Source of the DNA: an uncultured Bryobacteraceae bacterium
Lineage (GTDB): Bacteria > Acidobacteriota > Terriglobia > Bryobacterales > Bryobacteraceae
Assembly: GCA_938027685.1 (NCBI GenBank)
Contig: CALJAM010000040.1
Coordinates: forward strand, 1-34,220
Direction: 5' to 3'
Length of the DNA: 34,220 bases
Shown here: positions 17,992-30,614 of the stretch, piece by piece
How positions within the stretch are numbered: the first letter of the stretch is position 1
Layout: each line of letters begins with the position of its first letter
Translations under genes and position numbers: made by a program
The notes under the pieces: model-generated
What the model was told of the DNA's origin: nothing
Databases searched by the model: none
Seen by the model: the letters and a program-made list of their open reading frames with translations, nothing else

Positions 17992-18624
17992 GTGGGGCTG
18001 ATCACCGTCTTCGCCTGTGAATCGCAGCCGATGGTGGTCGAGGGCCTGCGCGTGGCGCTGGAGGCCTGCCGGCAGTTGATGCTGGTCGGCGCGGCGCCGC
18101 CCGAGCAGGCTGCGCCGCTGATCGCCCGGCTGCACCCGGCGGTCGTGCTGGTCAGCCCGGAGGAAGAGTCTCCGCAGGTCGTCGAACTGCTGCGGTCCTT
18201 GCGTAGGGCCTCGCCTTCGAGCGGCCTGGTTTTGTGGGTCCGCGATCCCGAGCGCATCCCTGCTGAGAAGGCCTACGAGGCCGGCGCGCGCGCCCTCCTG
18301 CGCCGCACGGCGCCGGTCGGCGTCCTGATGGACTGTCTGCTGACTGTGGCTGGAGGCGGCCTCTGGACCGAGCGCCGGGACAACCACTCGAAACCCTCGC
18401 TTAAGCCCGTGCGGCTCACGCCTCGCGAACGGCAAATCCTGCGTCTGCTGTGCCGAGGCATGAAGAACAGTCAGATCGCCGAAGCCCTGGCCATCGCACC
18501 GGGCACCGTCAAGGTCCATCTGACGCACTTGTTCGAAAAAACCGGGGCACGCAACCGGTACGAGCTCGCCATCGGGGCCTGGCGGCTGGGACTGGATCTT
18601 GCCGGGGAATCCCGCGCGGAGTGA
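17992..18624 (+). CDS. LuxR-family regulator with degenerate receiver domain
   Basis: A 210-residue NarL/FixJ-type protein. The C-terminal LuxR helix-turn-helix is intact: LTPRERQILRLLCRGMKNSQIAEALAIAPGTVKVHLTHLFEKTG, about residues 138-186. The N-terminal receiver-like half keeps the fold pattern but lacks the phosphorylation residues. The acidic pair is E10-S11, the position of the phospho-aspartate in VVLVSPEE is Ser55, and the conserved Lys region reads LLRRTAP. It is therefore probably regulated by protein or ligand binding, or is constitutive, not by phosphorylation. The start is GTG at 17992, with GGTGGGG nearby; this start is uncertain. The next gene begins four bases after the stop, so the two form an operon. 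Confidence 0.85.
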   Translation: MGLITVFACESQPMVVEGLRVALEACRQLMLVGAAPPEQAAPLIARLHPAVVLVSPEEESPQVVELLRSLRRASPSSGLVLWVRDPERIPAEKAYEAGARALLRRTAPVGVLMDCLLTVAGGGLWTERRDNHSKPSLKPVRLTPRERQILRLLCRGMKNSQIAEALAIAPGTVKVHLTHLFEKTGARNRYELAIGAWRLGLDLAGESRAE

Positions 18625-20373: not shown

Positions 20374-21267
20374 ATGGATCGGAGATTTCTGACCGTGGCA
20401 GGGCTGAGCCTGCTGTTCGCGCTGGTCGTGGCTGGGGTCTTCTACCAGACCGTGGCCGGCGCCAGCCGTGCTCCCAAGCCCCAGAAGATCGAAACCAGGG
20501 AAGTGGTCGTGGCGGTTCGCGCCTTGCCCGTGGGAGTCACGATCAAGCCTGATGACGTCAAGGTCGCGCGCCTGCCTGCAGCGCAAATACCGCCCGGAAC
20601 GTTCAGTCGCCCGGAGGAAGTCTACGAACGCCCCGTCATCAGCTCGATCCTTCCCGACGAGCCCATCCGCGAGGGGCGCGTCGCGGCGCGGGGCGCCGGT
20701 CTTGGTCTGGCGCCCGTGATTCCTCCCGGTATGCGCGCGGTAGCGGTGCGCGTCAACGAGGTTGTAGGCGTGGCCGGGTTCGTGCTGCCGGGCATGCGCG
20801 TGGACGTGCTGGTGACCGGCAAGCCGCCTCATCACCCGGACACCATGACGACCACGATTCTGCAGAACATCCTCGTGCTCTCGGCGGGCCAGAAGATCGA
20901 GCCGGACGCGCGCGGGCAGGCGATCAACTCGCCCGTAGTGACCTTGCTGGTGACGCCCGAGCAGGCCGAGATCCTGACGTTGGCGGGCAACGAGGGCAAG
21001 ATCCAGCTCGTGCTGCGCAACGCGGGCGATCAATCGGTCGAGAAGACGCCGGGGCGCATGCTGGCGGAGCTCTACCCGGTGCGCAAGCCGCCGCCCGAGC
21101 CGGCTGCCGCCGCCCCCGTGCGCGCGCCGCGCGCCGAAGTCAAAGTCGACAGCCCCGCGGTCCCGAAGCCTCCGCCCGCCGAAGAAGTCGTGGTCTACCG
21201 CGGCTCGCAGCGCAGCGTAGAGGTAGTCAGTTCCGCCAGGCAACCGGTCAGCGGGAGTCTGCCATGA
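20374..21267 (+). CDS. cpaB: Flp pilus assembly protein CpaB (RcpC)
   Basis: A 297-residue periplasmic/inner-membrane Tad component. One N-terminal span (FLTVAGLSLLFALVVAGVFYQTVAG, about 5-29) anchors it. The SAF domain follows: VVVAVRALPVGVTIKPDDVKVARLP...PVISSILPDEPIREGRV, about 45-105. The RcpC core contains MRAVAVRVNEVVGVAGFVLPGMRVDVLVTG and VTLLVTPEQAEILTLAGNEGKIQLVLRN. A proline/alanine-rich tail ends the protein. CpaB is thought to work with the secretin and may bind peptidoglycan. The ATG has GAGGTAAGG upstream. The stop overlaps the cpaC start (ATGA). The 153-base gap before it shows no clear promoter. Confidence 0.93.
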   Translation: MDRRFLTVAGLSLLFALVVAGVFYQTVAGASRAPKPQKIETREVVVAVRALPVGVTIKPDDVKVARLPAAQIPPGTFSRPEEVYERPVISSILPDEPIREGRVAARGAGLGLAPVIPPGMRAVAVRVNEVVGVAGFVLPGMRVDVLVTGKPPHHPDTMTTTILQNILVLSAGQKIEPDARGQAINSPVVTLLVTPEQAEILTLAGNEGKIQLVLRNAGDQSVEKTPGRMLAELYPVRKPPPEPAAAAPVRAPRAEVKVDSPAVPKPPPAEEVVVYRGSQRSVEVVSSARQPVSGSLP

Positions 21268-22649
21268 AACGTGGGATCGTTGCCGTGGCGCTTACGGGTT
21301 GGCTGGCACTGCCGCCGCTGCGCGGTCTGGCCGACGATGCGCCCGTCCCGGCCCAGGAGTTGCGGCTGGCCGCGGGCCGCAGTGCGGTGATCGACTTCCC
21401 GACCGACGTCGCGCGCATTTCGACCAGCAACCCCGAGGTCGTCGACGCGGTCGCCGTCTCGCTGCGCGAGGTTCTGCTGCACGCCCGGAACTTGGGCAGC
21501 GCGACGGTCGTGGTGTGGACGAAAAACGGGGGCCGCGCTTTCTACCAGGTTTCCGTCGAGCCCAACCTGGAGCCGATCCGCGAACTGCTCAGGAAGACGT
21601 TTCCGGGCGAGAACATTCAGGTTCAGGCTACGCGCGATTCGCTTTCGCTGACGGGCCGCGTCTCCAGCGCCGCCGTGGCCGAGCGCGCGGCCGCGCTGGT
21701 GGCGCCGCACGCCAAGACCGTGGTGAACCATCTCGAGATCGCGCCCAACGGTCCCGACCCGCAGGTGTTGCTGCGCGTGCGTTTCGCCGAGCTGAATCGC
21801 TCAGCGCTCGAGGCGCTGGGCGCCAACCTGGTCTCGACCGGTGCGCTGAACACCCCCGGCTCGGTCACCACGGGTCAGTTCCCCAGCCCGCGGGCCTCGC
21901 AACTGGAAGGCACGATCCCTGGCCGGCTGGAGGGAACGCAGTCCAGCTTCAGCATTTCCGACACGCTGAATGTGTTCGCCTTTCGCCCGGACCTGAACCT
22001 GGCCGCGTTCATCCGAGCGCTGGAAAGTCGCGGGCTATTGCAGATCCTGGCCGAGCCGAATCTGGTGACGACCAACGGCAAGGAGGCCAGCTTCCTGGTG
22101 GGCGGCGAGTTTCCCATCCCGGTCGTGCAAGGCGGAGCCAACGTGGGTGCAGTGACGATCCAGTTTCGCGAGTTCGGCATCCGCCTGACCTTCCTGCCGC
22201 AGATCACGCCGCACCAGACCATCAAGATGATGGTGCGCCCGGAGGTCTCCACGATTGACATGGCCAACGCCCTGGTCTTCTCCGGCTTCACGATTCCGGC
22301 CCTGGCCACACGGCGCATGGAGACCAACGTGGAGCTGGCGCCGCGGCAGAGCTTCGTGATCGCGGGCCTCATTGACGATCGGGTGACCGAAACGCTAGCG
22401 AAGGTGCCGGGCCTGGCCGACATTCCCCTGCTCGGCGCGCTGTTTCGTAGCCGGCAGCAGAACCGCAGCAAGACCGAGCTGGTGGTGATCGTCAGCCCCG
22501 AGATCACCCACCCGCTCGAGGCCGGTCAGCCGTTGCCGGGTCCGGAGATGCCCAAGGAGTTTCTGCCGCCGTTGACGAAGCCGAGCGCCCGCGGCGGCCC
22601 GGCGGCGCCCAGCCGGAAGGCGGCCGCCGGCAGGAAAGGGAACCGGTGA
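21264..22649 (+). CDS. cpaC: Tad pilus secretin CpaC (RcpA)
   Basis: A 461-residue outer-membrane secretin with a signal peptide (MKRGIVAVALTGWLALPPLRG). The pilus-assembly N-terminal domain is at about 33-108 (LRLAAGRSAVIDFPTDVARISTSNPEVVDAV). A BON-like region follows (about 110-155), then the secretin domain with LLQILAEPNLVTTNGKEASFLVGGEFPIPV and the signature VPGLADIPLLGALFRSRQQNRSKTELVVIVSPEI near 385-420. It forms the ring through which the pilus or cargo passes. It overlaps cpaB and cpaE by four bases each (ATGA and GTGA), showing tight translational coupling. The C-terminal 30 residues are basic and rich in Pro, Ala and Gly. Confidence 0.95.
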   Translation: MKRGIVAVALTGWLALPPLRGLADDAPVPAQELRLAAGRSAVIDFPTDVARISTSNPEVVDAVAVSLREVLLHARNLGSATVVVWTKNGGRAFYQVSVEPNLEPIRELLRKTFPGENIQVQATRDSLSLTGRVSSAAVAERAAALVAPHAKTVVNHLEIAPNGPDPQVLLRVRFAELNRSALEALGANLVSTGALNTPGSVTTGQFPSPRASQLEGTIPGRLEGTQSSFSISDTLNVFAFRPDLNLAAFIRALESRGLLQILAEPNLVTTNGKEASFLVGGEFPIPVVQGGANVGAVTIQFREFGIRLTFLPQITPHQTIKMMVRPEVSTIDMANALVFSGFTIPALATRRMETNVELAPRQSFVIAGLIDDRVTETLAKVPGLADIPLLGALFRSRQQNRSKTELVVIVSPEITHPLEAGQPLPGPEMPKEFLPPLTKPSARGGPAAPSRKAAAGRKGNR

Positions 22650-23882: not shown

Positions 23883-25244
23883 ATGCTTCCCATGACGGAT
23901 TCCGAGGCGCGACGACCGCTGAGCTGGGACCAGCGCCTGATCCAACGCGCACACCAGCCGCGCGGCTCGATCCGTCCGGAATATCAGGAACTGAAATTCA
24001 CCCTGCACCGCAAGCTAGTCGACCGCATGAACATGGAGGCGTTCGCGGCCATCGACAGCGAGCGCATGCGCGCGGAGGTGCGGCAGGCGCTGATGAGCCT
24101 CATCGAGGGCGAATCCACGCTGCTGAGTTCCTTGGAGAAACAGCAGATCTGCGACGAGGTGCTCGACGAGGTCTTCGGTCTGGGGCCGCTCGAACCCTTG
24201 CTCGAAGACCCGACGGTCTCCGACATCCTGGTCAACACGCACAAGCAGGTCTATGTCGAGCGGGGCGGGGTGCTCGAGCTGACCAACGTGAAATTTCGCG
24301 ACGACGCGCACCTAATGCGCATCATCGACCGGATCGTCTCCAACGTGGGCCGGCGCATCGACGAATCCAATCCGATGGTGGATGCGCGGCTGGCCGACGG
24401 CTCGCGCGTCAACGCCATCATCCCGCCGCTGGCGGTCGACGGTCCGCTGCTGTCGATCCGGCGCTTTGCCCGCGACCGGCTGATGCCCGCCGATCTGGTC
24501 GAACGCAAGGCTCTGACGCCGGGCATGATGGAGCTGCTCGAGGGCTGCGTCAAGGCGCGGCTGAACATGATCATCTCGGGCGGCACCGGCGCGGGCAAGA
24601 CGACGCTGCTCAATGCCCTGTCGGCTTTCATCTCGCCTCGTGAGCGCATCGTAACGATCGAGGATGCGGCCGAGCTCCAGCTCAAGCAGCCGCACGTGGC
24701 CCGCCTGGAGACGCGCCCGCCGAACCTGGAGGGTCAGGGCGCCGTCCGGCAGCGCGAGCTGCTCATCAACAGTCTGCGCATGCGGCCGGACCGGATCATC
24801 GTGGGCGAGGTGCGCGGCGAGGAGGCGCTCGACATGCTTCAGGCGATGAATACGGGTCATGAGGGTTCGCTGACCACGATCCACGCCAACTCTCCGCGGG
24901 ATGCCATCAGCCGTCTGGAAGTGATGGTGACCTGGGCGGCAGCCAATATGCCGCTGGTTTCCATCCGCCAACAGATCGCCAGCGCCATTCAGGTGATCGT
25001 ACAGGCGGCCCGCCTGAGCGATGGATCGCGCCGCGTGACCTCGATCACCGAGGTCACGGGCATGGAGGGGGAGGTCATAACCCTTCAGGACATCTTCGTG
25101 CTGGAACGGCGGGGCGTGAGCCCGGAGGGCAAGGTTCTCGGACGCTTCGTCGCCACAGGGATCCGGCCCAAGTTCTATGAGCGTCTGCTGGCGGCGGGCA
25201 TCCGGTTGCGGCCGGAAGTTTTCGACGAGGTGGTCGAGCTGTAA
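23883..25244 (+). CDS. cpaF: Tad pilus motor ATPase CpaF (TadA)
   Basis: A 453-residue hexameric secretion ATPase of the type II/IV (GspE/VirB11) superfamily that powers pilus assembly. The N-terminal domain contains [23 protein letters not shown]. The Walker A is [14 protein letters not shown] near residue 233, followed by [12 protein letters not shown] (Asp box), [21 protein letters not shown] (Walker B) and [22 protein letters not shown] (His box). All catalytic motifs are intact. The start is the ATG at 23883 after ACGGAGGAGAG; a second ATG three codons later is possible. tadB follows after six bases. Confidence 0.96.
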
Positions 25245-25250
25245 GACGCC

Positions 25251-26219
25251 ATGCTGCTAGCGGCCGTCGTTTTCGTCTTGGCGTGGCTGGCCTCGATGGG
25301 GCTGATTTGGGGCCTGTGGAGGGCGCGGCACGGGGCGCGACTGGACCGGATCACGCGACGGCTGACCGGGGGCGCAACCGCCGAGCGCAAGGCGCGTAAG
25401 GGACCCGCGTTGATCCAGACCGAGGCGCCCCGGCACGGCAAGTACGTGATGCAACTGGCGGCCCAGTTCAGGTTGATTGAGCGGTTGCGGATGCTCATCG
25501 AGCAAGCAGGCCTGAAGTGGGACGTGGCGCGGACGCTGCACGGCTGTCTGGCGTTGTTTCTGGCCGGCTTCGCCTTCGTGTGGTACCTGACGCCGGCCCT
25601 CCGCAGCCTGGCCCCGCTGTTCGGGATCCTCTGCGGGTCGATGCCGATCGTCTACATCCTGCGCGTGCGGCGGGACCGGCTGCGCAAGTTCGAGGAGATG
25701 TTTCCCGAGGGCCTGGAATTTCTGGCCCGCTCGATGCGCGCCGGGCACGCCTTCACGGTCGCGCTCGAGCTGATCCACGCCGAATTTCGGGAGCCGCTGT
25801 CGGGCGAGTTCCGGCGCGTCTTCGACGAACAGAACCTGGGGCTGCCGCTCGAGGTCGCCTTCCAGAAGTTCGCCGAGCGCGTCCCCCTGATGGACGTGCG
25901 CTTTTTCGTTTCCGCCGTGCTGCTGCAGAAGCGCACGGGCGGCAATCTGTCCGATCTGCTGGACAAGCTGGCCCACCTGATCCGAGAGCGATTCACGCTG
26001 CGCGGACGGATCCGGGCCATCAGCGCGCACGGGCGCATGACCGGCACCGTGCTTTCGCTGATTCCCGTGGTCGTGGCTCTCATCATGTCCTGGGTCAATC
26101 CGGACCTGATCTCGTTTTTCTTCCGCGACGAGTTGGGCCGGATGATGCTGGCGGCGGCGGTGGGCCTGCAGGTCGTCGGCTACCTGATCATACGCCGGAT
26201 CGTGGCCATCGAGGTGTAG
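25251..26219 (+). CDS. tadB: Tad inner-membrane platform protein TadB
   Basis: A 322-residue inner-membrane protein with a type II secretion F domain. An N-terminal span (LLAAVVFVLAWLASMGLIWGLW) is followed by a cytoplasmic stretch and a pair of spans (about 95-140). The T2SSF domain (about 160-285) includes FPEGLEFLARSMRAGHAFTVALELI, EQNLGLPLEVAFQKFAERVPLMDVRFFVSAVLLQKRTGGNLSDLLD, and two C-terminal spans. With TadC it forms the platform that couples the CpaF motor to the filament. It starts six bases after cpaF and ends three bases before tadC, so it belongs to the same transcript. Confidence 0.94.
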   Translation: MLLAAVVFVLAWLASMGLIWGLWRARHGARLDRITRRLTGGATAERKARKGPALIQTEAPRHGKYVMQLAAQFRLIERLRMLIEQAGLKWDVARTLHGCLALFLAGFAFVWYLTPALRSLAPLFGILCGSMPIVYILRVRRDRLRKFEEMFPEGLEFLARSMRAGHAFTVALELIHAEFREPLSGEFRRVFDEQNLGLPLEVAFQKFAERVPLMDVRFFVSAVLLQKRTGGNLSDLLDKLAHLIRERFTLRGRIRAISAHGRMTGTVLSLIPVVVALIMSWVNPDLISFFFRDELGRMMLAAAVGLQVVGYLIIRRIVAIEV

Positions 26220-26222
26220 CCT

Positions 26223-27143
26223 ATGCCCCTGCTGCTATCGATCGGCGTCTTCGTGCTGGTGGCGGGCGGGATGACGCTGTTGGCCTCGCGGTTGTGGTTG
26301 CGGCCGCGGGCGGTCATCGAGCGCATTACGGGCGCCGACGGGCTTGCCGTGGAGCGGCCGCAGAAACATCCCAGCCTGGCCTTTCGCGAATTGCTGACCA
26401 AACTGGGCAACGTCCTGCCGGCCTCGCCGCGCGACGTCACCGTCATGCAGCAGCGGTTGATCCGCGCGGGCTACCGCGGTTCCGCAGCTCTGAAATACCT
26501 GTACGGATCGAAGGTGCTGCTGGGCGTGACGCTGCCGGTGCTCGCGGCCGTCGCTGTAGCGGGCTCGTCGCGCACGGCCGAGAACAAGGCCATGCTGATC
26601 GCTCTCTCGGCCGCGGCCGGCTTCTTTGCGCCGAACGAGTTTGTGCGGCGCAGGGCCCGTCGTCGCCAGCGCCAGATCCGGCGCGGCCTGCCAAACGCTC
26701 TTGACCTGCTCGTGGTTTGCGTCGAATCGGGCCTGGGCCTCGATCAGGCGATCGTACAGACGGCCAAGGAGCTCGAACAAGCACATCCGGAGATCAGCGA
26801 GGAGCTGGCCCTGGTGAACTTCGAGCTGAGGGCCGGCAAGCGGCGGGTGGAGGCGCTGCGGAACCTGGCCGAGCGTACCGACGTCGAGGAGCTGCGCAAA
26901 CTGGCGGCCGTGCTCATCCAGGCGGATCGTTTCGGCACCAGCATCGCGCAGACGCTGCGGTCGCATTCGGATTTCATGCGGGTGCAGGCGCGGCAGCAGG
27001 CCGAGGAGAAGGCCGCCAAGCTGGGCGTGAAACTGGTTTTCCCGATTTTTTTCTGCATCCTACCGTCGCTGTTCGTGGTGACGGTGGGCCCGATCATGGT
27101 GCGGGTGGTGCGCGAGCTGCTGCCCGTAATCAGGGAGATGTGA
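26223..27143 (+). CDS. tadC: Tad inner-membrane platform protein TadC
   Basis: A 306-residue partner of TadB with the same type II secretion F domain. It has an N-terminal span (LLLSIGVFVLVAGGMTLLASRLW) and a pair of central spans around 100-145. The conserved segment is LPNALDLLVVCVESGLGLDQAIVQTAKELEQAHPEISEELALVN, and the T2SSF second half is FGTSIAQTLRSHSDFMRVQARQQAEEKAAKLGVKLVFPIFFCILPSLFVV, typical of the TadC C-terminus. It is the last recognised Tad structural gene in the row. A perfect hairpin follows two bases after the stop, and a tiny membrane-protein gene lies beyond it. No TadD, TadE or TadG follows, as would be usual. Confidence 0.94.
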   Translation: MPLLLSIGVFVLVAGGMTLLASRLWLRPRAVIERITGADGLAVERPQKHPSLAFRELLTKLGNVLPASPRDVTVMQQRLIRAGYRGSAALKYLYGSKVLLGVTLPVLAAVAVAGSSRTAENKAMLIALSAAAGFFAPNEFVRRRARRRQRQIRRGLPNALDLLVVCVESGLGLDQAIVQTAKELEQAHPEISEELALVNFELRAGKRRVEALRNLAERTDVEELRKLAAVLIQADRFGTSIAQTLRSHSDFMRVQARQQAEEKAAKLGVKLVFPIFFCILPSLFVVTVGPIMVRVVRELLPVIREM

Positions 27144-27145
27144 GC

Positions 27146-27163
27146 GGCGCCCGCACGGGCGCC
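27146..27163 (+). other. Perfect hairpin after tadC
   Basis: GGCGCCCG (27146-27153) and CGGGCGCC (27156-27163) are perfect inverted repeats; as RNA this gives a 7-bp stem with a GCAC tetraloop. It lies two bases after the tadC stop. An A-rich stretch, not a T-run, follows, with a weaker CGAGT/ACTCG pair at 27174-27196. An RNA-stability or processing element that separates the levels of tadC and the small gene behind it is more likely than intrinsic termination. Confidence 0.5.
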
Positions 27164-27230
27164 TGGGAGAAGGCGAGTCGGTAAAGAAAAAACTCGTCAA
27201 CAACCCTAACCGAAGACAAGGAGCTTAAAG

Positions 27231-27320
27231 ATGGACACGACGACGATCCGGATCATCTGCGCGATCCTGGCCGTACTGATGGTGGCGGTCATCGTGATGC
27301 GCCGGCGGCGCAGCGTCTGA
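27231..27320 (+). CDS. 29-residue single-span membrane protein after the Tad genes
   Basis: A 29-codon gene running from ATG to TGA. The product starts MDTTTIRIICAILA, has an unbroken hydrophobic segment up to VIVM (about residues 6-23), and ends with four arginines and SV. The layout (short N-terminus, one span, basic C-terminus) predicts one inner-membrane helix with the tail inside by the positive-inside rule. A strong AAGGAG (27218-27223) sits seven bases before the ATG, better than most sites in this window, which argues that it is translated. It is not a recognisable Flp pilin: there is no prepilin leader with Gly/Ala-processing site and no Glu-Tyr pair. The role is unknown; a small accessory subunit of the Tad machine is a guess from position. 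Confidence 0.7.
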   Translation: MDTTTIRIICAILAVLMVAVIVMRRRRSV

Positions 27321-27635
27321 AAGCGGCGGCGCCGAGCAGGCCGGCCGGTGGCGAGGAGCACGGCACACGTTCCGTTGTGCGGCACGCGACACCGGAGCGT
27401 GTCGAGGCGAACCGCCCGGCCATCGCGGCGGAGCCCCACGGTGCCCGCCGGATCGCAGCGCCTCAGGCGCGGCACGGTAGGGCCCGGGTGGCGGCAGGGG
27501 GTCCGCCGGCTTCGGGTCCTAATTTTCTGGACTCGGGCCGGAGCAGTCCGTGCGAGAATTGTCCAAGCGCGGCGCGCCGGCCGCGGCAGCCGGATGCGAG
27601 AAGCGCAGGATGCGTGCGCGAAGGAGTAGAGCGTC
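27321..27635. other. Intergenic region, no gene recognised
   Basis: A 315-base GC-rich gap, poor in T over its first 170 bases. Open frames on the plus strand (for example 27348-27629) have arginine-rich, patternless products and no ribosome binding site. A GAGCGTC just before the ATG at 27636, with AAGGAG at about 27621, serves the next gene. No tRNA, riboswitch or classical terminator was recognised. Confidence 0.5.
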
Positions 27636-30614
27636 ATGAGGAAGGCGGCATGTTTGCTTGGTTTCGTCGCAGCCACGCTCTCGCCTGCTGCGCCGTTTGG
27701 GCGCCTGGTGCGGGTGGGCGGGCAGCTGGCGGATGTGGCGCTGGATGAGCGGCGGGGGGTGGCGTATCTGGCCAACTACACGGCGAACCGCATCGAGCAG
27801 GTGGCGCTGGCCGATCTGAGCCTGCGCAGCCCGCTCAACGTGGCGCAGCAGCCGGCGGGGCTGGCCCTTTCCTGGGACGGCCGCTGGCTGGTGGTGAGCC
27901 ACTTTGCCCCCTTCGCGGCGCCCCTGCGGCCCTCGAACGCTCTGACGGTGCTCGAGCTGGATACGGGTCGCCGGCAGACCTTCCTGTTGGGCTCGCCGCC
28001 TTTAGGCGTGGCCTTCGGGCGGGACAACCGGGCGCTGGTGGTCACGGCCGCGGAGTTCCTGCGGCTGGCGCCGGAGACCGGGGCCACCGAGGTGGTGGCG
28101 CGCATGGAGGATCTGGCCACGCAGACCCTGCCCGTTCCGCCGGCCACCTGGCCGACCGAGATCGTGCGCGCTTCGGTGGCGGCCTCGCAGGACGGCAAGC
28201 GCATCCTGGGGATCCTGGAGGCCGAGGGCGAGCAGACCGCGCTGGTCTTTGTTTACGACGTCGACTGGCGGCGCCTGCGGCTGCAGGCCTGGGTGACCGA
28301 GCCGCCGCTGGGGCCGCGGGCCATCTCGGTGGCGAGCGACGGCTCGCTGCTGGCCACCGGCTGGGGGGTGTTCACGCCCGAGGGCGTGCTGCTGGCGCAG
28401 TTCCGCAACGCCTCGGGCCGTCTGGGCCGGGGCTCGGTGGCGCTGGATTCGGCGCGCGGGCTGCTCTACGCGCAGTTCGAGCCGGTGGGGGCCAAGCCGA
28501 CCGACCCGCCCGTTTTGGTGGTGGCCGAGGCCGACAATCTCACGGTGCGCGAACGGCTGCTGCTGCCGGCGAATCTGACCGGCAAGGCGGTCCTGAGCGC
28601 CGACGGGCGCACCATGTACGCGGTGGCCGAGAACGGGCTGGCCGTGCTGCCGGTGGGCGAGCTGGAACGGCAGCCGCGGCTGGCGGCCCGCCGCGAACAG
28701 ATCCTGTTCCGCTCGGGCTTCTGCAACCGCCGCGGCCTCAGCGAGGAGTTCGAGCTGGTGGATCTGAGCGGGGCGCGCACGGACTTCGAGCTGGAGGTCC
28801 CCGCCGGCTTTACGGTCTCGCCCGTGCGGGGCACGACGCCGGCCCGGGTGCGCGTCACGGTGGATCCCAACCGCTTCCTCAATCAGCGCGGAACCACGGA
28901 GGGCTTCATCCGCATCCGCTCCCAGGGCGCCGTGAACCTGCCCGAGCCGGTGCGCGTGCTGGTGAACATGCGCGAGCCGGACCAGCGGGGCACGGTGATC
29001 GAGGTTGCGGGCCGGCTGGTGGACATCCTGGCCGATGCGGCGCGCAACCGCTTCTACATCCTGCGGCAGGATAAAAACCAGGTGCTGGTCTACGAGGCCT
29101 CCGGCTACCGGCTCCTGGGCACGCTGCGCACGGGCAACACGCCCACGCAGATGGCGATGACGCCCGACGGCCGCCGTCTGCTGATCGGGGCCGACGACTC
29201 GCAGATCGCCCGCGTCTACAACTTGGAGACGCTGGAGGAGGAGCCGCCCATCGTCTTTCCGCCCGGCCACTATCCGCGCTCGCTGGCGGCGGCGGGCGAC
29301 GTGATCCTGGCGGCGGCGCGGGTGGCCGGCCCCAAGCATGTGCTGGATCGGGTGGATCTGAACCTGCGCCGGGCGGTCGAGCTGCCCAGCCTGGGCGTCT
29401 GGGAAAACAACATCCACGTGGACACGGTGCTGGCGGCCACGCCCAACCGGGCGGCGATCCTGGTGGCGCAGGCCGACGGCCACCTGCTGCTGTACAGCGC
29501 GGCCGAGGATACCTTCATCGCCTCGCGCAAGGACTTCGCCAAGCTGGGCGGGGCCTACGCCGCCATCAGCGAGGACCGCTTCCTGGTGGACAACCATCTT
29601 CTGGACGGCGCGCTGGCGCCCATCGGCGATCTGCCCGCCATGGGGCTGAGCTCGGGCTTCGTGGTCGTCGACGGCCTGGGGGTGCGCACGACGGCGCCGG
29701 ATGCGGCCGCGGCCGGAGGCATCGAGCGGGTCGATCTGGAGCGGGCCGGCATCCTCAGACCCACGCGCATGACGGAGGCGCCGCGGCTGGCCGACGCCGC
29801 GCTGCCGCCCGTCTTCACGCGCACGCTGGCCGCGCTGCCCGGGGCGGGGCTGATCCTGTCGCTTTCCACCTCGGGCTTCACCGTGCTCAGCTCGGACTAC
29901 GACGCCGCCGTGGCCGATCCGCGCATCGAGCGCGTGACCAACGCCGCCGACGACAGCGAGCGCGTCGCGCCGGGCGGCCTGATCACGGTGGCCGGGCGAC
30001 AGCTGAGCCTGCTGACGGAAGCCACGCGCGAGCTGCCGCTGCCCACCGCGCTGGCCGAAAGCTGCCTGACGGTGAACGGCGCGTTGGTTCCCATGGTGCT
30101 GGTATCGCCCGAACGGATCCACGCCCAGTTGCCCTTCGGGATCACGGGCTCGGCCACCATGATCCTGCGCACGCCGGGCGGGATCTCCAACAGCTTCCGC
30201 TTCACGATTCACCCGGCGGCCCCGGCCGTCTTCCGCACGGGGGTGGCGGGCGAGGAGCGGGGCTTGGCCACCGTGGTGCGCAAGCGCAACAACCAACTGG
30301 TGACGCTGTCGAACCCGATCCATCCCGAGGACGCGCTCGAGATCTACCTGACCGGGCTGGGCGCCACGGCTCCCGAGGTGCCCGAAGGCTATCCGGCGCC
30401 GGCGAGCCCGCTGGCCCAGGCGGTGAACAAGCCCGTGGTGCGGCTGGGCGGGGTCGAGCTGCCGGTGGAGTTCGCCGGCCTGAGCCCGGGGCAGGTGGGC
30501 GTTTACCAGATCAACGTGCGCGTGCCCTACTGGGTCCCGCTGGGCATGGACGTGCCGCTGGAAATCCAGGCCGCCGGGCAGGCGACGACGCTGAGCGTAC
30601 GGGTGGTCAAGTGA
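27636..30614 (+). CDS. Large secreted beta-propeller protein with TIGR03437-type C-terminal domain
   Basis: A 992-residue exported protein with a signal peptide (MRKAACLLGFVAATLSPAAP). Residues about 25-345 read as repeated YVTN/WD-like blades (ADVALDERRGVAYLANYTANRIEQV, GLALSWDGRWLVVSHF, ISVASDGSLLATG, AVLSADGRTMYAVAENG). An Ig-like segment follows at about 370-450 (FELEVPAGFTVSPVRGTTPARVRVTV). A second propeller covers about 460-750 (RNRFYILRQDKNQVLVYEASGY, QMAMTPDGRRLLIG). The end (about 762-992) matches the Solibacter-type C-terminal domain: VTNAADDSERVAPGGLITVAGRQL, LVSPERIHAQLPFGI, LEIYLTGLGAT and VGVYQINVRVP. It is probably surface-attached or secreted, and no catalytic motif is visible. 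The ATG has AAGGAG about ten bases upstream. The same C-terminal domain recurs in the third gene of this cluster. Confidence 0.88.
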   Translation: MRKAACLLGFVAATLSPAAPFGRLVRVGGQLADVALDERRGVAYLANYTANRIEQVALADLSLRSPLNVAQQPAGLALSWDGRWLVVSHFAPFAAPLRPSNALTVLELDTGRRQTFLLGSPPLGVAFGRDNRALVVTAAEFLRLAPETGATEVVARMEDLATQTLPVPPATWPTEIVRASVAASQDGKRILGILEAEGEQTALVFVYDVDWRRLRLQAWVTEPPLGPRAISVASDGSLLATGWGVFTPEGVLLAQFRNASGRLGRGSVALDSARGLLYAQFEPVGAKPTDPPVLVVAEADNLTVRERLLLPANLTGKAVLSADGRTMYAVAENGLAVLPVGELERQPRLAARREQILFRSGFCNRRGLSEEFELVDLSGARTDFELEVPAGFTVSPVRGTTPARVRVTVDPNRFLNQRGTTEGFIRIRSQGAVNLPEPVRVLVNMREPDQRGTVIEVAGRLVDILADAARNRFYILRQDKNQVLVYEASGYRLLGTLRTGNTPTQMAMTPDGRRLLIGADDSQIARVYNLETLEEEPPIVFPPGHYPRSLAAAGDVILAAARVAGPKHVLDRVDLNLRRAVELPSLGVWENNIHVDTVLAATPNRAAILVAQADGHLLLYSAAEDTFIASRKDFAKLGGAYAAISEDRFLVDNHLLDGALAPIGDLPAMGLSSGFVVVDGLGVRTTAPDAAAAGGIERVDLERAGILRPTRMTEAPRLADAALPPVFTRTLAALPGAGLILSLSTSGFTVLSSDYDAAVADPRIERVTNAADDSERVAPGGLITVAGRQLSLLTEATRELPLPTALAESCLTVNGALVPMVLVSPERIHAQLPFGITGSATMILRTPGGISNSFRFTIHPAAPAVFRTGVAGEERGLATVVRKRNNQLVTLSNPIHPEDALEIYLTGLGATAPEVPEGYPAPASPLAQAVNKPVVRLGGVELPVEFAGLSPGQVGVYQINVRVPYWVPLGMDVPLEIQAAGQATTLSVRVVK

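Follow-up and report, generated by a model that had tools for sequence, protein, structure and literature searches.

The window analyzed here, a stretch of 34,220 nucleotides, contains a Tad pilus gene cluster and, behind its last platform gene, a very short open reading frame (ORF) encoding a membrane microprotein. Tad pili are widespread, and the inner-membrane platform is the least understood part of the machinery. The features of the cluster and of the region behind it are as follows:

starting at 20374, cpaB (Pfam)
starting at 21264, cpaC (Pfam)
starting at 22646, tadZ (Pfam)
starting at 23883, tadA (Pfam)
25251 to 26219, plus strand, tadB, platform protein with a T2SSF domain (Pfam PF00482, E 4.3e-16)
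26223 to 27143, plus strand, tadC, platform protein with a T2SSF domain (Pfam PF00482, E 1.3e-19)
27146 to 27163, plus strand, perfect hairpin with a 7-bp stem and a 4-nt loop
27218 to 27223, plus strand, Shine-Dalgarno (SD)-like AAGGAG, 7 nt 5' of the ATG (from the sequence; -7.7 kcal/mol)
27231 to 27320, plus strand, ORF of the 29-residue membrane microprotein (from sequence and conservation)
27498 to 27520, plus strand, terminator-like stem followed by a T-rich stretch (1 found versus 0.5 expected by chance)

The terminator-like stem possibly marks the end of the operon. A LuxR-type regulator (17992 to 18624) is encoded upstream of the cluster.

The ORF begins with ATG, encodes MDTTTIRIICAILAVLMVAVIVMRRRRSV, and ends with TGA after 29 codons; the product has a single hydrophobic segment followed by RRRR. 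A preliminary description of this DNA had pointed to a short frame behind tadC with one membrane span and a tetra-arginine tail, and our analysis confirmed it at this position. The tiny gene is real and protein coding. In 30 sister pairs (one locus was used twice), the pooled ratio of nonsynonymous to synonymous change was 0.31 (0.161 versus 0.516), compared with 1.05 and 2.56 in the shifted frames, and differences at the three codon positions numbered 174, 82, and 355. The preliminary description had accepted that its proposal would fall if the frame were not conserved in relatives with the same Tad order; because the frame is conserved behind tadC, with an excess of synonymous change, that objection fails, and the claim of a coding gene tied to the Tad cluster was borne out.

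Chance is a poor source of such frames. Applied to both strands of the whole window, our ORF-calling rule found the microprotein ORF alone. The rule, which was devised after the first examples were known, made no calls in 3,680 dinucleotide-shuffled versions of the regions that follow 184 tadC genes and one call in the 184 reverse strands. Across 109 kb of full clusters it called only microproteins and two family members located away from tadC, and in a scan of 818 kb, 26 of the 33 calls away from this slot were C-terminal pieces of TadB, as judged by position and by eye.

Strong SD sites are usual in the family: 119 of 120 microprotein ORFs had a site of -6 kcal/mol or better, versus 66 of 120 tadC genes, with the most favorable start picked for both. 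The ribosome binding site in the window had been described as the clearest of the area, which is wrong, since those of tadA (-9.5 kcal/mol), the gene at 27636 (-8.3), and cpaB (-7.8) are all stronger than the -7.7 kcal/mol of the microprotein ORF. The hairpin (GGCGCCC-GCAC-GGGCGCC) does have a perfect stem, as had been reported; the further suggestion that it sets a separate, higher expression level found no support. Of 120 loci, only 5 have a comparable hairpin in the gap that separates tadC from the ORF; the window is one of them, its single same-genus locus (L003, in which a loop base differs) is another, and we rejected the hairpin as a general element of the family. Among 90-nt pieces drawn at random from the window, about 4.5% contain a comparable stem, and the 121 nt surrounding the hairpin fold only slightly better than their shuffled versions (z -1.4; 18 of 200 shuffles reached as low a value). 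The gap between tadC and the ORF is usually 34 nt (range, 6 to 298), in many loci too short for a hairpin plus an SD site. Neither a terminator-like T run behind the hairpin nor a promoter-like site or Rfam RNA match between 26900 and 27700 was found, and we rejected a terminator or promoter at this position.

In most of the Acidobacteriota Tad clusters examined, a microprotein gene regularly follows tadC directly; the family is phylum-wide and not universal. Among 61 related genomes searched, 45 had TadC, and 43 of these carried a microprotein behind a tadC; the two exceptions (G011 and G052) have only distant TadC genes, without a microprotein. No match at E <= 10 was detected in any of the 16 related genomes that lack TadC. 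The 29-residue query by itself matched 39 of the 61 relatives at E <= 10, and in the first 31 loci, the ORF followed tadC in 27 but not in L002, L008, L017, and L030. A second TadC type, about 40 to 51% identical and also found in the window's own genome (contigs C15 and C8), is accompanied by a related form, MDNTVLSAILWIAAGGVLVLLVLRRRKRKLSG. In a third TadC lineage from the same genomes, the microprotein was absent from all 15 loci fetched.

In an even draw of 199 genomes from the phylum, profile A1 matched 28 genomes at E <= 0.05, and all 16 loci analyzed lay behind tadB-tadC; weak matches (L141 to L152; E 0.01 to 0.05), several of them in long open frames, were left out of the locus analysis. 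TadC was present in 30 genomes of this draw at E <= 1e-35, and 17 of 28 newly fetched tadC loci had a microprotein, including some forms missed by A1. For profile A5, which was partly built from these loci, 22 of 25 matched places were behind a tadC. Among the best 80 named tadC loci of a longer list, matched to a TadC profile built from Acidobacteriota, a microprotein was found in 44 of 52 with Acidobacteriota titles (spanning Bryobacteraceae, Acidobacteriaceae, Vicinamibacteria, and others) versus none of 28 from other or unassigned lineages. A profile search of 27 genomes of other or unassigned lineages returned one match (E 0.0097), inside a 439-residue frame. The unbiased counts are those for the 45 TadC-bearing genomes, the 52 named loci (from the best 80 of the longer list), and the 28 newly fetched loci, and they are not all independent; the total of 120 ORFs behind 184 tadC ends is no frequency, since 36 of those ends were fetched because a microprotein was present.

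Presence of the microprotein follows the phylogeny of its neighbor. On a tree of 176 TadC proteins (184 before the removal of eight near-copy rows), the presence label needs 7 changes, versus a mean of 52 when shuffled, and none of 500 shuffles was as low. The tree includes 149 Acidobacteriota proteins, 113 with a microprotein, and 27 others, none with one. The 36 deduplicated Acidobacteriota loci without it include the third TadC lineage and also L103 and L104, two loci whose TadC is closely related to the type of the window. Tad platforms therefore work without the microprotein.

Across the family, the common plan is a short N terminus, one helix, and a basic cluster within about 30 residues; 115 of 120 ORFs encode 28 to 35 residues, and in 101 of 120 a basic pair sits at residue 24 or 25, after the helix. 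In the window's tadC-linked type (alignment A1; 36 sequences), Arg7, Arg24, and Arg25 never vary, and Cys10, Ala14, and Ile21 hardly do. Conservation varies along the helix with a period close to 100 degrees, and it peaks on much the same side across groups set by TadC (p 0.007, 0.037, 0.059, and 0.23, the last for a group of nine). An earlier version of this test, in which the groups were set by a motif containing the tested cysteine, gave p values of 0.010, 0.020, and 0.25 and was redone with the TadC-set groups. Such periodicity is consistent with a helix that uses one face to contact a partner. With its basic cluster after the helix, the protein would, under the positive-inside rule, have a periplasmic N terminus and a cytoplasmic tail (N-out/C-in). 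Three long forms (L044, L181, and L182) and one non-Tad member (L289) have an extra hydrophobic start that by eye resembles a signal peptide, which would agree with this orientation.

No Pfam or NCBIfam family names the microprotein, PHROGs yielded one weak match, and the PDB yielded none at E < 0.4. We took the likenesses to a PRD1 DNA-delivery family (Pfam E 0.02; PHROG E 0.008) and to a PDB chain (best E 0.47) as chance resemblance between hydrophobic sequences. LPXTG, PGF-CTERM, and similar sorting anchors share the order of a helix followed by a basic cluster, the N-out/C-in orientation, and weak profile matches, of which only the long form L181 scored above the cutoff (TIGR01167; 19.2 versus 15.9). 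However, these anchors are the C-terminal tails of large surface proteins, whereas the microprotein is a whole protein.

TadB and TadC form the platform and are thought to be one functional unit, according to excerpts of two studies (PMC11300603 and PMC10790770), one of which places the second transmembrane segment of GspF-type proteins (TMS2) at the periphery and proposes a trimer of TadB-TadC heterodimers (PMC10790770). By hydropathy, the window's TadB has five hydrophobic segments, including a pair at the C-terminal end, where TadC has a single one. The pattern is general: one terminal segment was predicted in all 176 TadC proteins, with or without a microprotein, versus two in 167 of 178 TadB proteins, the last followed by basic residues. 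This difference suggests that the microprotein may supply the helix that TadC lacks.

On balance, we think that the microprotein is probably a small, N-out/C-in subunit of the TadB-TadC inner-membrane platform, a putative component that would stabilize or tune it in a manner comparable to that of CydX in cytochrome bd. In this model, the microprotein would bind the platform, formed by its operon neighbors in the GspF/PilC family (PMC11300603 and PMC10790770, in part), through its one conserved helix face. Two marks of an accessory subunit, a constant gene order beside a single partner and inheritance together with that partner's type, were both found, alongside the 36 of 149 Acidobacteriota tadC loci without it. 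Pairwise distances of microprotein and TadC correlate (Mantel r 0.60; the largest of 2,000 permutations reached 0.13), but equally long pieces of TadC correlate better with TadC (0.72 to 0.88), which counts against the proposal.

A weaker part of this explanation concerns the place at which the microprotein would bind. TadC would end outside after its one segment, whereas TadB would add an out-to-in helix ending in basic residues. If it has the topology of that last TadB helix, as hydropathy and the positive-inside rule suggest, the microprotein could give TadC a matching helix at the platform edge, packing on it as a separately encoded last helix and steadying the platform. Sequence homology that would mark the microprotein as a duplicate of the last helix of TadB was not found: hhalign gave a probability of 6.6%, although this was the best of six helices tried. 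There was no sign of a microprotein fused to TadC or of longer TadC tails where it is missing; TadC ends alike with and without it, the tails after the last GP or AP having medians of 18, 17, and 17. More tentatively still, we speculate that the acidobacterial Tad platform could be a three-part machine of TadB, TadC, and microprotein, in which the separately encoded last helix would match the topology of TadC to that of TadB and might close the edge of the heterodimer trimer, with tandem copies as specialized versions. Tandem microproteins occur behind tadC in eight loci (L205, L224, L239, L241, L244, L246, L093, and L097), with three copies in L244.

An alternative hypothesis, which we consider improbable yet worth weighing, is that this is a general membrane microprotein, for example in quality control or as an adaptor for lipids or a protease, whose gene just happens to lie in the tad operon. 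A non-Tad sister group of the same design would then have another partner: the profile of nine such members, with DDF or EEF at the C terminus, matches the tadC-linked profile at an hhalign probability of 98.8, and 8 of the 15 non-Tad loci analyzed lie directly behind the malate dehydrogenase gene (mdh), each of the eight followed farther along by a SET-domain gene. These mdh-linked members (L275, L276, L279, L280, L285, L286, L289, and L302) have 36 to 63 residues and end in DDF or the like, L302 in KKF. The window's own genome encodes a non-Tad paralog on contig C33 (L326:7548-7718), 56 residues long, which starts with MKDVMPVLAWLLQEAETQPQV and continues with a helix, RRKRKKK, and EEF, and L043 holds a same-genus copy. 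The design is therefore not confined to Tad, which favors this hypothesis and suggests that one microprotein design is used for more than one partner. Orphans also occur. Two Tad-type microproteins lie away from tadC in reversed orientation (L032:3610-3690 on G037:C200 and L033:3071-3151 on G049:C333), and G037 has another tadC (L103) without a microprotein behind it; L305 and L322 form an orphan tandem pair of second-type microproteins (G216:C1:2027431-2027738) with no Tad gene within about 9 kb on either side. Against a general role stand the lack of matches in relatives without TadC, the place behind tadC kept across the phylum, and the fit of presence to the TadC tree.

The preliminary description had expected a small structural subunit produced in large numbers. 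Read as a minimal pilin or pseudopilin of the filament, this expectation was not borne out, and we regard such a role as very unlikely, even though the protein is small and hydrophobic, is encoded inside a pilus operon, and at some loci comes in tandem copies. A prepilin carries a basic leader and a Gly-xxxx-Glu peptidase site ahead of its helix. The window protein has neither, and its basic residues lie behind the helix, the reverse of that order. A Pfam search with the window protein at E <= 1 did not return the Flp pilin family (Flp_Fap; PF04964), which is likewise a small hydrophobic protein of the same system. No Flp match was found within the window itself, but Flp-like genes, most below the Pfam cutoff, lie in several relatives on contigs of microprotein-bearing tad genes (for example, G021:C120, G049:C241, G053:C20, G044:C1, G009:C31, and G016:C127), and weak Flp matches occur elsewhere in the window's own genome (C27, C16, C8, and C14). 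We rejected the pilin reading on the charge order, the lack of a Pfam match, and the separate Flp-like genes.

Type I toxins are small proteins with one helix and a basic tail, so the microprotein has the look of one, but against a hydrophobic toxin or selfish ORF stand a position kept in the same operon throughout a phylum, strong SD sites, and a conserved helix face, and no Rfam RNA was found between 26900 and 27700 (antisense families outside Rfam would be missed); we give this reading almost no weight. It is equally implausible that the ORF is a translated leader or spacer acting only in mRNA stability or coupling, despite the hairpin ahead of it here and in the same-genus locus, given that selection acts on the amino acid sequence and that this is a late gene of the cluster, with the genes behind it differing between lineages.

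For the favored platform subunit, the nearest functional likenesses would be CydX, KdpF, and AcrZ. Like the microprotein, CydX (and CydY and CydZ) of cytochrome bd oxidase are described, in excerpts of the source, as tiny single-span proteins encoded behind large-subunit genes, often unannotated, and tied to one partner type (PMC4325964). KdpF (PMC10903887) and AcrZ (PMC7267776) appear in similarly partial sources as single-span small proteins that join large membrane complexes. The partner of CydX is different, however, and its binding has a counterpart in the microprotein only by inference; KdpF and AcrZ belong to other machines and have no sequence match to the microprotein, and no Pfam model of the three was among its matches. 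The excerpted accounts of the Caulobacter and Klebsiella Tad platforms mention no small subunit (PMC11300603 and PMC10790770), and none was found in the open-license literature searched.

The family spans a phylum and, as far as they were searched, has no entry in Pfam, NCBIfam, or PHROGs. If its members are platform subunits, the annotations of most Acidobacteriota Tad clusters miss one gene, pilus motors join the complexes that have small single-span subunits of the CydX type, and the microprotein could help to show how TadB and TadC come together and move.

The surroundings of these genes also show some recurring neighbors. A small DUF192-like protein, recognized by eye, is often encoded next after tadC or the microprotein (L198, L250, L262, and other Acidobacteriaceae loci), and LuxR-like genes were seen by eye near two non-Tad microproteins (L038 and L045). 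In the window, the gene behind the Tad cluster (27636 to 30614) encodes a protein with the Solibacter C-terminal domain TIGR03437 and propeller-like repeats.
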